A stretch of 64,000 nucleotides of DNA from an uncultured Verrucomicrobiota bacterium (lineage in GTDB: Bacteria; Verrucomicrobiota; Verrucomicrobiia; Limisphaerales; UBA9464): contig CAIXUG010000052.1 in NCBI GenBank assembly GCA_903922605.1, forward strand, positions 62,001 through 126,000, in the 5' to 3' direction. Every line of letters begins with the position of its first letter. Position 1 is the stretch's first letter. This document shows, piece by piece, positions 15,983-49,109 of the stretch. Under the pieces are notes generated by a model, which worked only from the letters and a program-made list of their open reading frames with translations, was not told where the DNA came from and did no database searches. Made by a program: the position numbers and the translations under genes.

Positions 15983-16076
15983 GTGAGCCAGTAATCAGTA
16001 ATCAGTGAGGAGGCAGCAGACACAAAGCCGACCGATCACTGATTTACTGATTACTGATTACTGATTACTGATTACT
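15983..16076. repeat. Palindrome with heptamer arms (ACTGATT units)
   Basis: The left arm (15983-16008, AGTAATC units) is inverted in the right arm (16036-16075, ACTGATT units, five copies) around a 26-bp centre. It fills the 116-bp spacer between the convergent TPR-like and C39-like genes. Confidence 0.9.
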
Positions 16077-43479: not shown

Positions 43480-44556
43480 TTACGGTAGGAAACGTACGGC
43501 ATAGACCGGGGGAAAATTGTGCCCCAGTTCGGTCCACGAATCGCCCCGGTCCGCGGAGAAGAAGACGTTGCCGGTGGTCGAGCCGAAGGCCAGCGCATCC
43601 ACCTGCTGATCAAGCGCATGGCGGAGCACGATGTCGTAGGTGCGTTCCTGCGGCAGCCCGTTCGTGAGCGTCTGCCAGCTTTTCCCGCCGTCGGTCGTGC
43701 GGCAGACGCACAGGGCGCCGCCCACGGCCATGCGCTGTTCGTCGGCCTTCGCCGGCACCACCCAGGCTGTCAGCGGGTCGTGCGGATCGGCGGCGATGGC
43801 AAAGCCGAAGAAAGCCGGTCCGCCGGGCTGCGCGACGTCCTGCCACGAAGCGCCGCCATTGGCGCTGCGGAAGATGCCGCAGTGATTCTGCTGCCACAGC
43901 ACGTCGGGATGCGCCGCGCACGCCGCGACCAGATGCGGATCGTGGCCGACCTCGGTGTTCGGGTCCGGCAGGAATGAGGCGGTCAATCCCCGGTTGCGCG
44001 GCGCCCATGTGGTCCCGTCGTCGGTGGTTTCGAAGACGCCGGCGCAACTGATCCCGACCAGCACCCGTCGCGAGTCGCGCGGATCCACGATCACCGAATG
44101 GATGCCCGGGTGATCACGGCCGCCGCCGAACCAGTTCCCCGGGCGCGACGGATGGTTCCACAGCCCCTCGACGATCTGCCAGGTATCGCCACCGTCGCCG
44201 CTCCGGAAGAGCCCACCGGGCTCCGTGCCGAGATACAGGCGCTGGGGCTGGTCCGTCCCGCCGTGCGCGAAGACCCACAGGTAGCGCAGCGTTGCCGGGA
44301 CGCCGGGCTTGATCTCCGCGCCCTCGGGATACTTCGGCGCGGTCACTTCCTCCCAGGTTGCGCCGCCATCGCGCGAGCGCTGCAGCTTCTGGCCCCAATG
44401 CCCGTGATCCAGCGTCGCCCAGAGCGTGCCGGTACGCGGATCGGCGGCGGCGTAGGCGACCGGCACGCCGGGAAAAACCTCCCGCGTGATGCGGCTTCCG
44501 GTGGCCGTGGGTTCGACAAACAGCAGTCCCTTACGGGTGGCGAGCAGGATGGTCAT
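43480..44556 (-). CDS. Asp-box (BNR) propeller protein, sialidase-like fold
   Basis: 358 residues with no signal peptide. Six Asp-box turns are seen: SRDGGATW, SGDGGDTW, TDDGTTW, SANGGASW, TTDGGKSW and SADRGDSW, giving a six-bladed propeller. The Arg triad and Tyr/Glu pair of true sialidases are not evident, so an enzyme name is not justified. It is cytoplasmic by sequence. The gene lies next to a MoaD/ThiS-family gene on the same strand. As I recall this pairing recurs in other bacteria, which suggests a functional link; that is from memory and unverified. The 158-bp gap between them is filled by heptamer arrays. Confidence 0.85.
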   Translation of the reverse strand: MTILLATRKGLLFVEPTATGSRITREVFPGVPVAYAAADPRTGTLWATLDHGHWGQKLQRSRDGGATWEEVTAPKYPEGAEIKPGVPATLRYLWVFAHGGTDQPQRLYLGTEPGGLFRSGDGGDTWQIVEGLWNHPSRPGNWFGGGRDHPGIHSVIVDPRDSRRVLVGISCAGVFETTDDGTTWAPRNRGLTASFLPDPNTEVGHDPHLVAACAAHPDVLWQQNHCGIFRSANGGASWQDVAQPGGPAFFGFAIAADPHDPLTAWVVPAKADEQRMAVGGALCVCRTTDGGKSWQTLTNGLPQERTYDIVLRHALDQQVDALAFGSTTGNVFFSADRGDSWTELGHNFPPVYAVRFLP

Positions 44557-44565
44557 GGGGGGAAG

Positions 44566-44642
44566 GAGTCAGGATACAGGATACAGGAGTCAGGAGTCAG
44601 GATGAAGCGCGGAGCGGGGAGCGGGGAGCGCGAAGCGGGGCG
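44566..44642. repeat. Heptamer array, 11 units, two unit types
   Basis: Exact period 7 over 77 bp: five GAGTCAG/GATACAG-type units, one GATGAAG, then CGCGGAG, CGGGGAG, CGGGGAG, CGCGAAG, CGGGGCG. The unit sequence changes part way through while the phase is kept. Confidence 0.95.
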
Positions 44643-44679
44643 ACAATGGTGCGCAGGTGGCGGATGGAGTTGTTCGGCA

Positions 44680-44714
44680 ATTCGTCATTCGAAACTCGTC
44701 ATTCGAAATTCGCC
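44680..44714. repeat. Heptamer array (ATTCGAA type, 5 units)
   Basis: ATTCGTC, ATTCGAA, ACTCGTC, ATTCGAA, ATTCGCC at exact period 7, ending immediately before the stop codon of the MoaD/ThiS gene (44715). Confidence 0.95.
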
Positions 44715-44987
44715 TCATCCGCCGGAGAGGGCTTGGAGAATGAACACCTCGTCCTCGGGCACGAGCGGGTCCGACAGCCGCTCCCGGTCCTGCACGGGGC
44801 TGGCGTTCACGAAAATGTTCACATGCTTGCGGAGAGCGCCCTGGTCGTCCGTCACGTAGCCGGCGAGGCCGGGATGCAGCCGGTCCAGCGCCGCGACGGT
44901 CTCCGCCACGGTTGTGCCGGCGATGACCATTTCCTCAAGCTTCGGAAAGAAGCGCCGCAGGTGGGAGGTGAACCGCAGACGAGGCAT
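44715..44987 (-). CDS. MoaD/ThiS-family sulfur-carrier-like protein
   Basis: The start at ATG 44985-44987 (MPRLRFTSHLRRFFPKLEEM) gives 90 residues, the usual size for the beta-grasp fold. The chain has the pattern of MoaD/ThiS: VAGTTVAETVAALDRLHPGL, VNIFVNASPVQDRERLSDPL and VPEDEVFILQALSGG. It ends in Gly-Gly, as needed for thiocarboxylate formation after adenylation. No MoaE, MoeB or ThiG is nearby. It is paired with the Asp-box propeller gene, so it may serve a non-molybdenum, non-thiamine pathway. That is inference. Confidence 0.85.
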   Translation of the reverse strand: MPRLRFTSHLRRFFPKLEEMVIAGTTVAETVAALDRLHPGLAGYVTDDQGALRKHVNIFVNASPVQDRERLSDPLVPEDEVFILQALSGG

Positions 44988-47015: not shown

Positions 47016-49109
47016 CTAGGCTCGGACGAATTCCGCGTGCAACTGGGCGTAGGTGCCGCCGAGGGCGAGGAGTTCGGTGTGGGTGCCGCGCTCGACGATG
47101 CGGCCGTGGTCGAGAACGAGGATCAGATTGGCGTGGCGCACAGTGCTGAGGCGGTGCGCGATCACAAAGCTCGTGCGGCGCGCGAAAAGCTCCTCCAGCG
47201 CGTGCTGGATCAGCCGCTCCGTCTGCGGGTCCACCGCGCTGGTGGCCTCGTCGAAGATGAGGATGCGCGGCTCCGCCACCATCGCCCGCGTGATGGTGAT
47301 GAGCTGCCGCTCGCCCGCGCTCAGGTTCCCGCCGCGCTCGCCGACCTTGGTGTGATACCCGTCGGGCAGCCGCGCGATGACGTCATGCGTGCCGAGTTTC
47401 GTGGCGGCGGCGATCACTTCGGCTTCGGTGGCGTCGGGCCGGCCAAAGCGCAGGTTGTCCAGCACGGTGCCGGTGAAGAGGAAGTTCTCCTGCGTGACGA
47501 TGCCGAGCTGGCGATGCAGGGATTCGAGGGTGTGCCGGGAGATGTCGAGGCCGTCGGGCGCGGAGGCGGCGTCGGAGAGTGAGCCAGTAGGCCAGTGGGT
47601 CAGTGGGTCAGAGGAAGAGGCAACAGAAGGACGGTCTTCCCTCTGGCTTTCTGGCTCACTGGCTGACTGGCTGACTTGGGAGGGAAATGGAGCCTCCTCA
47701 CGTCGGCTGCTACCAGAGTCGAGGAGGATGCGCCCGCGCTGCGGTTCGTAAAGGCGGGCGAGCAGGCTGATGATGCTGGTCTTGCCGGAGCCTGTGTGGC
47801 CGACGAGCGCGACGGTCTCGCCGGCGCGCACGGTGAAGCGGATGTCGCGCAGGACCCATTGGTCGGCGGGTGTGGTGTCGTAGAGGAAGGAGACGTCGTC
47901 GAAGGTCACGTCGCCGTGGAGCGATGGCAGCGCCTTGGCTTCGGCGCGGTCGCGGACCTGCGGTTCGGTGTCGAGGAGGGCGAAGATGCGTTCGGCGCTC
48001 GCAGCGGCGGAGAGCATCGCATTGTACAGGTCGCCCATTGTCTGGATCGGCCCGAAGAACATGCCGAGGTAGAGCACAAAGGCCGCGAGCGCGCCGACCG
48101 TGAGCGCCCCGTGCTGCACGCGCCAGCCGCCGTAGCCCAGCAGCACCGCCGTCGAGATGCCCGCGAGAAAGCCGACGAACGGCATGTAGGTGTGGAACAC
48201 CCGCGACGAGGCGACCCAGCGTGCCGTGAAATCGTCGTGCAACGCCTGAAAGCGGTTCAGGTTCTCCGTCTCCCGGCCGAAGGCCTGGACGACCCGCATG
48301 CCCGAGATGTTCTCGGCCATCGAGGCGGTGAGACGCGACATCGTGCCGCGCAACTGGCGGTAGGCTTCGCGGCCCTTCACATGAAACCATTTCGTGGCCC
48401 AGGCGAGCGGTACCAGCACGGCGCAAACGGCGAGGCACAGCCGCCAGTCATAGTGCAGCAGCAGCGCGACGACGCCCACGAGCGTCACGAGGCTGGAGAG
48501 CGCCTGCGTCGCGCCCCAGGTGAGGACGCGATCGAGGGCGTCCACGTCGCTGTCGGCCCGGGCGATGATGCGGCCCTGATGGGTGCGGTCGAAGTAGTTC
48601 AGCGAGAGCCGCTGGATATGCTCGAAGACGGCCAACCGCAGATCATTCATCGCGCCCTGGCCGATCGTGATGGCCGCGCGCACCTGGATGACCGACAGCG
48701 CCCAGCCGACCAGGAGGTTGGCGAGGTAGAGGGCGCTCACGATGAGGATGCCCTGTGAGGGGGAAAGTGAGTCAGTGGGAGGGGGGGAGAGTGAGCCAGT
48801 AAGCGAGTGAGCCAGTGAGTCAGACGAAGCAACCGAACTACGGTCTTCGCTCTGGCTTACTGGCTCACTCGCTGACTGGCTTACTTTGCTGCTAATGGCA
48901 AACGCAGGCGTCAGGTACTCGTCGATGCCGTACTGGATGAGCTTTGGTCCCAGCAGGGTTGAGGCGGTGGCCAGGACCGTAAGGATGAGGTTCCAGATGA
49001 AGGCGCGGCGGTACGGCCGGGTGTACGAAAATAGCCGGCGCACGAGCGAGCCGCGCATTTTCGTCTGCGCGAATTCCTCGTCGAGGGCAATGTCGTCGTG
49101 GGTGGCCAT
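47016..49109 (-). CDS. ABC exporter half-transporter (TMD-NBD) carrying two repeat-derived insertions
   Basis: 697 residues. Six-helix exporter domain then an ATPase domain. Walker A GHTGSGKT (437-444), Q-loop at Q540, signature LSAGERQ, Walker B ILIFDEATSA and the switch HRLS are intact. Two stretches are foreign to the fold: residues about 74-119 (between membrane helices 1 and 2) and about 465-517 (between Walker A and the Q-loop, after RILLD). Both encode nearly the same peptide (VSQSASEPxSQxEDRxSVASS, then TGSLS) and come from the same DNA repeat, in the same frame. The gene forms a pair with the next gene, probably a heterodimeric exporter of the MsbA/LmrA type. Substrate unknown. Confidence 0.93.
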   Translation of the reverse strand: MATHDDIALDEEFAQTKMRGSLVRRLFSYTRPYRRAFIWNLILTVLATASTLLGPKLIQYGIDEYLTPAFAISSKVSQSASEPVSQSEDRSSVASSDSLAHSLTGSLSPPPTDSLSPSQGILIVSALYLANLLVGWALSVIQVRAAITIGQGAMNDLRLAVFEHIQRLSLNYFDRTHQGRIIARADSDVDALDRVLTWGATQALSSLVTLVGVVALLLHYDWRLCLAVCAVLVPLAWATKWFHVKGREAYRQLRGTMSRLTASMAENISGMRVVQAFGRETENLNRFQALHDDFTARWVASSRVFHTYMPFVGFLAGISTAVLLGYGGWRVQHGALTVGALAAFVLYLGMFFGPIQTMGDLYNAMLSAAASAERIFALLDTEPQVRDRAEAKALPSLHGDVTFDDVSFLYDTTPADQWVLRDIRFTVRAGETVALVGHTGSGKTSIISLLARLYEPQRGRILLDSGSSRREEAPFPSQVSQSASEPESQREDRPSVASSSDPLTHWPTGSLSDAASAPDGLDISRHTLESLHRQLGIVTQENFLFTGTVLDNLRFGRPDATEAEVIAAATKLGTHDVIARLPDGYHTKVGERGGNLSAGERQLITITRAMVAEPRILIFDEATSAVDPQTERLIQHALEELFARRTSFVIAHRLSTVRHANLILVLDHGRIVERGTHTELLALGGTYAQLHAEFVRA
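47559..47717 (-). repeat. Octamer-armed hairpin element, copy A (inside ABC exporter gene)
   Basis: On the coding strand: five GT(C/G)AGCCA-type octamers, a GAAGACCGT...CTTCC hairpin core with bulged G, then inverted octamers (CCACTGAC/GGCTCACT types). The coding region is enlarged in frame by about 53 codons. The core and arms match copy B. Confidence 0.9.
48753..48890 (-). repeat. Octamer-armed hairpin element, copy B (inside ABC exporter gene)
   Basis: Same layout as copy A: GTGAGCCA/GTAAGCCA octamers, core CGAAGACCGTAGTTCGG, then inverted TCACTGGC octamers. Stem bases differ from copy A at paired positions (G-C versus C-G), keeping the hairpin. Adds about 46 codons in frame. Confidence 0.9.

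Follow-up and report, generated by a model that had tools for sequence, protein, structure and literature searches.

Introduction

Minisatellites with variant units are characterised by interspersed variants and by whole-unit changes in copy number, and both features are found in the arrays described here, the units of which are, however, very short and spread across many loci with common words. In bacteria, heptamers are over-represented in the gaps between genes, and published proposals link slippage to the polymerase footprint. The GGGNATC-type heptamer repeats of Xanthomonas and Nostoc form quadruplexes, four units being preferred (Rehm et al., 2015; PMC4692102). With the present arrays they share a 7-base unit over-represented in gaps, a G-rich strand that is antisense upstream of ORFs and sense downstream of stops (outward, as here), and a length and sequence that vary at a given gene pair among related species; their word GGGAATC is also compatible with the GA grammar described below. 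Yet, they comprise essentially one word type per genome, whereas the present genome uses many words, mostly without a GGG tract (PMC4692102). The TAACTGA repeats of Beggiatoaceae (MacGregor, 2015; PMC4679880) are likewise dispersed intergenic direct heptamers, but their word is invariant, with near variants rare as repeats, and they lie mostly immediately upstream of starts; the present arrays typically contain variants and occur at starts as well as at stops. REP/BIME elements, which are targets of insertion sequences (Tobes and Pareja, 2006; PMC1525189), resemble the present arrays in being dispersed, intergenic, often arranged in inverted pairs and associated with a specific insertion sequence, although their units are palindromic and the present ones are direct repeats (spacer fold z-score +0.89).

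Intergenic heptamer repeats are a known kind of element; new here is the occurrence of many words under one grammar, and a literature search, mainly of open-access papers, found no account of multi-word heptamer arrays in Verrucomicrobia. Many bacteria have an excess of heptamer repeats, and dozens of words under one position grammar uncouple the period both from word identity and from the formation of quadruplexes. In addition, pairs of congeners allow a direct reading of the array mutation process.

Materials and Methods

The window, i.e., the whole stretch of 64,000 nucleotides that was analyzed, covers positions 62001-126000 of contig 52 in a genome of 5.3 Mb and 90 contigs from an uncultured Verrucomicrobiota bacterium (G000). 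A close relative, an uncultured Verrucomicrobia bacterium, has an orthologous stretch that is 89.5% identical. For comparison we used G004, a congener of G000, G006 and G007, more distant congeners with 70% identity, and the distant genome G046. Genome-wide counts cover about 1.3 Mb of G000 and 0.9 Mb of G004. The assemblies are draft metagenome assemblies, most statistics come from the two related genomes G000 and G004, and thresholds were set by us, several of them being reported. Genes were called with our own simple predictor, which was checked on known genes within the window. The grammar was fitted by a gene-blind alignment in which every array was free in strand and rotation.

Results and Discussion

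The spacer under study (44557-44714, 158 bases) contains three short heptamer arrays, named 1a, 1b and 2, between two genes on the minus strand:

43480-44556, minus strand: Asp-box/BNR-repeat gene, start codon side at the left spacer border (ORF call; Pfam Sortilin-Vps10, E 9e-12; BNR, E 2e-8)
44564-44605, plus strand: array 1a, units AGGAGTC, AGGATAC, AGGATAC, AGGAGTC, AGGAGTC, AGGATGA; GA register 4 mod 7
44606-44640, plus strand: array 1b, units AGCGCGG, AGCGGGG, AGCGGGG, AGCGCGA, AGCGGGG; GA register 1 mod 7
44641-44679, no strand: non-repetitive core of 39 bases by its lag-7 trace, with GA-type arrays to its left and a TC-type array to its right
44680-44714, minus strand: array 2, units in plus-strand reading ATTCGTC, ATTCGAA, ACTCGTC, ATTCGAA, ATTCGCC
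44715-44987, minus strand: ThiS/MoaD-like ubiquitin-fold gene, stop codon side at the right spacer border (Pfam ThiS, E 1.9e-8)

The ThiS/MoaD-like product carries a C-terminal Gly-Gly, and its gene matches NCBIfam SAMP1 with an E-value of 1.6e-10, under the cut-off of that model. An earlier note on this DNA had described the spacer as made almost wholly of heptamers, which overstates the case, since the arrays occupy only 112 of the 158 bases and 44641-44679 is non-repetitive. Its count of an 11-unit and a 5-unit array is reproduced by cutting every seven bases from 44564 and over 44680-44714, respectively, but Tandem Repeats Finder splits the first into two adjacent arrays (44564-44603 and 44604/44606-44637/44640). 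The lag-7 identity of array 1 amounts to up to 24/28, a score attained by 0 of 2000 shuffles, and falls at the join of 1a and 1b. Taken as a heptamer array only, array 2 is weak, with a score of 13/21 that 55 of 2000 shuffles match; it fits period 14 better than period 7. In all five of its units TC stands at one register, its words recur at other loci and their minus-strand reading is GA-type (GGCGAAT, TTCGAAT, GACGAGT). As the note had stated, array 2 ends exactly at the stop, the last unit abutting TCA at 44715-44717. The layout of the spacer is GA...TC, with different words in the two arms. GGG is absent inside the units of 1a and array 2, 1b has three GGGG tracts, and by its sequence the spacer does not qualify as a GGG quadruplex repeat. 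The head-to-tail units without unique spacers also set it apart from a CRISPR array. No RNA structure was found at the spacer (fold z-score +0.89) and no Rfam family matched it.

The change of word within array 1 had been taken to preserve phase and therefore to be hard to explain by slippage. Phase is preserved for the letters AG only; in the GA register, 1a and 1b are offset by 4 bases. Words of both families occur commonly at other loci. In G004, the orthologous spacer retains the two flanks, arrays 1a and 1b and their junction AGGATGAAGCGCGGAGCGGGG; as this junction is common to both species, it predates their split. The 'unit switch' is thus an inherited boundary between two arrays; it reveals no new mechanism and poses no particular difficulty to slippage. 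Array 1 of G004 is shorter by 7 + 14 bases, 1a lacking one unit and 1b two, and with one extra base the spacers differ by 22 in total; array 2 has the same number of units and carries substitutions. These whole-unit differences contradict the fixed-length constraint that had been suggested. In G006 and G007 the orthologous spacer holds no heptamer array, and G006 has a short non-heptamer repeat there. Overall, array pairs abut at 10 sites, 8 of them same-strand, of which 3 are in a common register, and nine additional word switches inside arrays are all in register. Mixed arrays are normal, and the 1a/1b switch is not an in-register case.

The studied arrays are real, ordinary members of a set dispersed in the gaps of the genome. 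The window contains 10 period-7 arrays, with none in shuffles, and 5 of period 8. In the analyzed part of G000, 69 period-7 arrays lie in 181 kb of gaps vs 18 in 1131 kb of genes, compared to 12 and 8 at lag 8, 21 and 16 at lag 6, and none at lag 5; counts at periods 14 and 21 mostly re-count period-7 arrays. G004 is similar, with 31 period-7 arrays in 129 kb of gaps. The arrays belong with the intergenic heptameric simple sequence repeats, given the excess of 7-base tandems, mainly in gaps, and a unit number that varies among relatives. There is no single invariant word (287 distinct units among 844), and most words genome-wide lack a GGG tract.

These words nevertheless share one register, which on the GA strand reads K R B G A R Y (approximately KRBGARY) with GA fixed in position. 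The grammar holds 3.68 bits per unit, vs 2.41 +/- 0.03 after permuting columns within arrays (134 arrays), and is recovered separately in each genome. Four tandem copies of the pattern occur 49 times in G000 and 25 times in G004, while the reversed control gives 0 in both; through the phylum its distribution is patchy, and in some other genomes the reversed control matches too. G046 has few arrays, and the 7 found look compatible with the grammar. That nearly all words have the GA register presumably stems from a bias in the sequence of the heptamers that undergo slippage or are retained.

At starts and stops alike, the GA strand tends to point away from the closest gene end: 65 of 96 (P 3e-4) and 33 of 46 (P 2e-3), counts that are not independent because the two genomes share orthologous arrays. 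Scored on the GA strand, the arrays thus follow the outward orientation of Rehm-type repeats, as a bias and not as a strict rule. It weakens when very short arrays are included (61 of 96, 33 of 50) and when plain GA minus TC counts replace the gene-blind grammar. Where two arrays occupy one gap, GA...TC is found 17 times and TC...GA 3 times, and the words of such inverted arms are alike (0.61 vs 0.46 +/- 0.04). Since array-free gaps upstream of starts show a bias of the same sign, a general composition effect may account for part of the orientation. An enrichment of arrays near gap edges was rejected: the median border distance is 7 vs 19 for random placement in G000, but 28.5 vs 28 in G004. 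As separate observations, the sense strand of the 40 bases before starts in array-free gaps of G000 and G004 is about 56% pyrimidine, opposite to a Shine-Dalgarno bias, and an inverted pair CAGTAAT...GATTACT in one gap of the window (15989-16076) differs strongly from its counterpart in the congener in core and unit number.

In our reading, the spacer probably contains three heptamer microsatellites of the dispersed set, which change by unit-wise slippage and drift, the switch being an old junction. Arrays would gain and lose whole 7-base units through replication slippage, and a point change in a single unit would be passed to its neighbours at the next duplication, letting words drift along the array; the drift is demonstrated statistically and the enzymatic step is presumed. 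Arrays 1a and 1b would be different-word arrays whose adjacency is older than the split of the sister species, and the bias toward gaps would arise because gaps tolerate array growth and genes do not. Identical adjacent units number 137 vs 91 +/- 6 after permutation, and among interior units the slope of Hamming difference with unit distance is 0.58 vs 0.25 +/- 0.04 (84 arrays); in G046 unit differences likewise grow with distance. Both the excess of identical neighbours and the distance-dependent difference are the expected outcome of neighbour-unit duplication combined with point mutation, and they bear out the gradual drift that the earlier note had offered as one explanation. Among indels of at least 5 bases, 8 of 23 inside arrays are multiples of 7 vs 50 of 340 outside.

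Slippage alone, however, does not account for the use of identical words by unrelated loci, nor for the change of words at near-constant length in the orthologous arrays C3:8244 and C64:2068, where length changed little or not at all. The outward GA orientation and the word match of inverted arms are equally beyond it. Across orthologous arrays, GA columns differ at 8.5% of positions vs 15.9% in other columns (nominal P 5e-4, with some arrays counted from both genomes). With some orthologous arrays having changed their words in register at little or no change in length, and with the GA columns diverging at about half the rate of the others, a process beyond neutral slippage may be involved.

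One such process would be ectopic gene conversion or template switching between loci, guided by the GA register, in which case the switch would record a copy of another array. The vocabulary is indeed narrower than the grammar requires, with 66 distinct major units in 122 arrays vs 109 +/- 3 when drawn from the position grammar; a composite CTCCTGACTCCTGACTCCGGACGCAGTCCCTCCTGTCTCCT recurs at three loci (C58, C20, C16); the orthologous arrays C3:8244, C17:6768 and C64:13789 differ in words while keeping the same register; and the likeness of inverted arms within a gap points the same way. Against this, unit similarity within arrays declines smoothly with distance, of the three copies of the composite, two lie next to the same mobile element end and could have been carried along by that element, and at the studied locus G000 and G004 retain the same two arrays and junction. 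We therefore regard copying as rather unlikely to explain the switch, although the words that loci have in common suggest a degree of inter-locus copying as well. The suggestion of stepwise copying from different templates accordingly is not borne out at the studied locus and finds limited evidence elsewhere. It is quite improbable that heptamer arrays of diverse words across bacteria (e.g., GGGAATC of Xanthomonas) form one class set by GA register and outward orientation instead of quadruplexes, and are generated or remodelled by a shared machinery that copies words from array to array in register.

The slower divergence of the GA columns and the outward orientation would also fit functional sites, such as protein-binding sites or leader/trailer RNA elements, in which selection holds the GA register and the rest drifts. 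This is very unlikely in view of the missing heptamer array in the spacers of the 70%-identity congeners G006 and G007, the placement of arrays beside both starts and stops, and the lack of a detected RNA structure at the studied spacer. That the arrays result from chance or misassembly of a draft genome in 90 contigs has a negligible probability, with 0 of 2000 shuffles speaking against it and orthologous arrays in the second assembly, G004, refuting it.

All five copies of the right end of an IS481-family element lie at G000 contig ends (C58:77425, C54:78, C22:47, C20:1 and C13:22439; loci L235-L239), and in every case a stretch of exactly 13 variable bases separates the right end from a CTCCTGA heptamer array beyond it. 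An intact IS481-family relative with transposase lies at L246 (NCBIfam IS481, E 2e-62, slightly under cut-off), and relatives in G029 and G052 are mostly near direct repeats too. Heptamer arrays may be an insertion target of this element. A 41-base composite of two short arrays flanking GGACGCAGTCC is present at L235, L238 and L244, two of which adjoin an IS481-family end.

Other repeats are found in the same genome. An ABC transporter gene in the window contains two inverted octamer-array pairs, AGTGAGCC...CTGGCTCA, at 47571-47682 and 48777-48888, with similar cores, of which no intact copy was found elsewhere in the genome; these octamer arrays are in frame, encode added serine-rich stretches and are also present in G004. 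In addition, gaps of G000 (e.g., C3:38521, C17:3042, C64:154063) are rich in dispersed palindromic elements belonging to several families, including GTAGGTCGGGCCGCTGGCCCGAC... and CTTGGACTGCGGCAGCCCTCTGCCGC....
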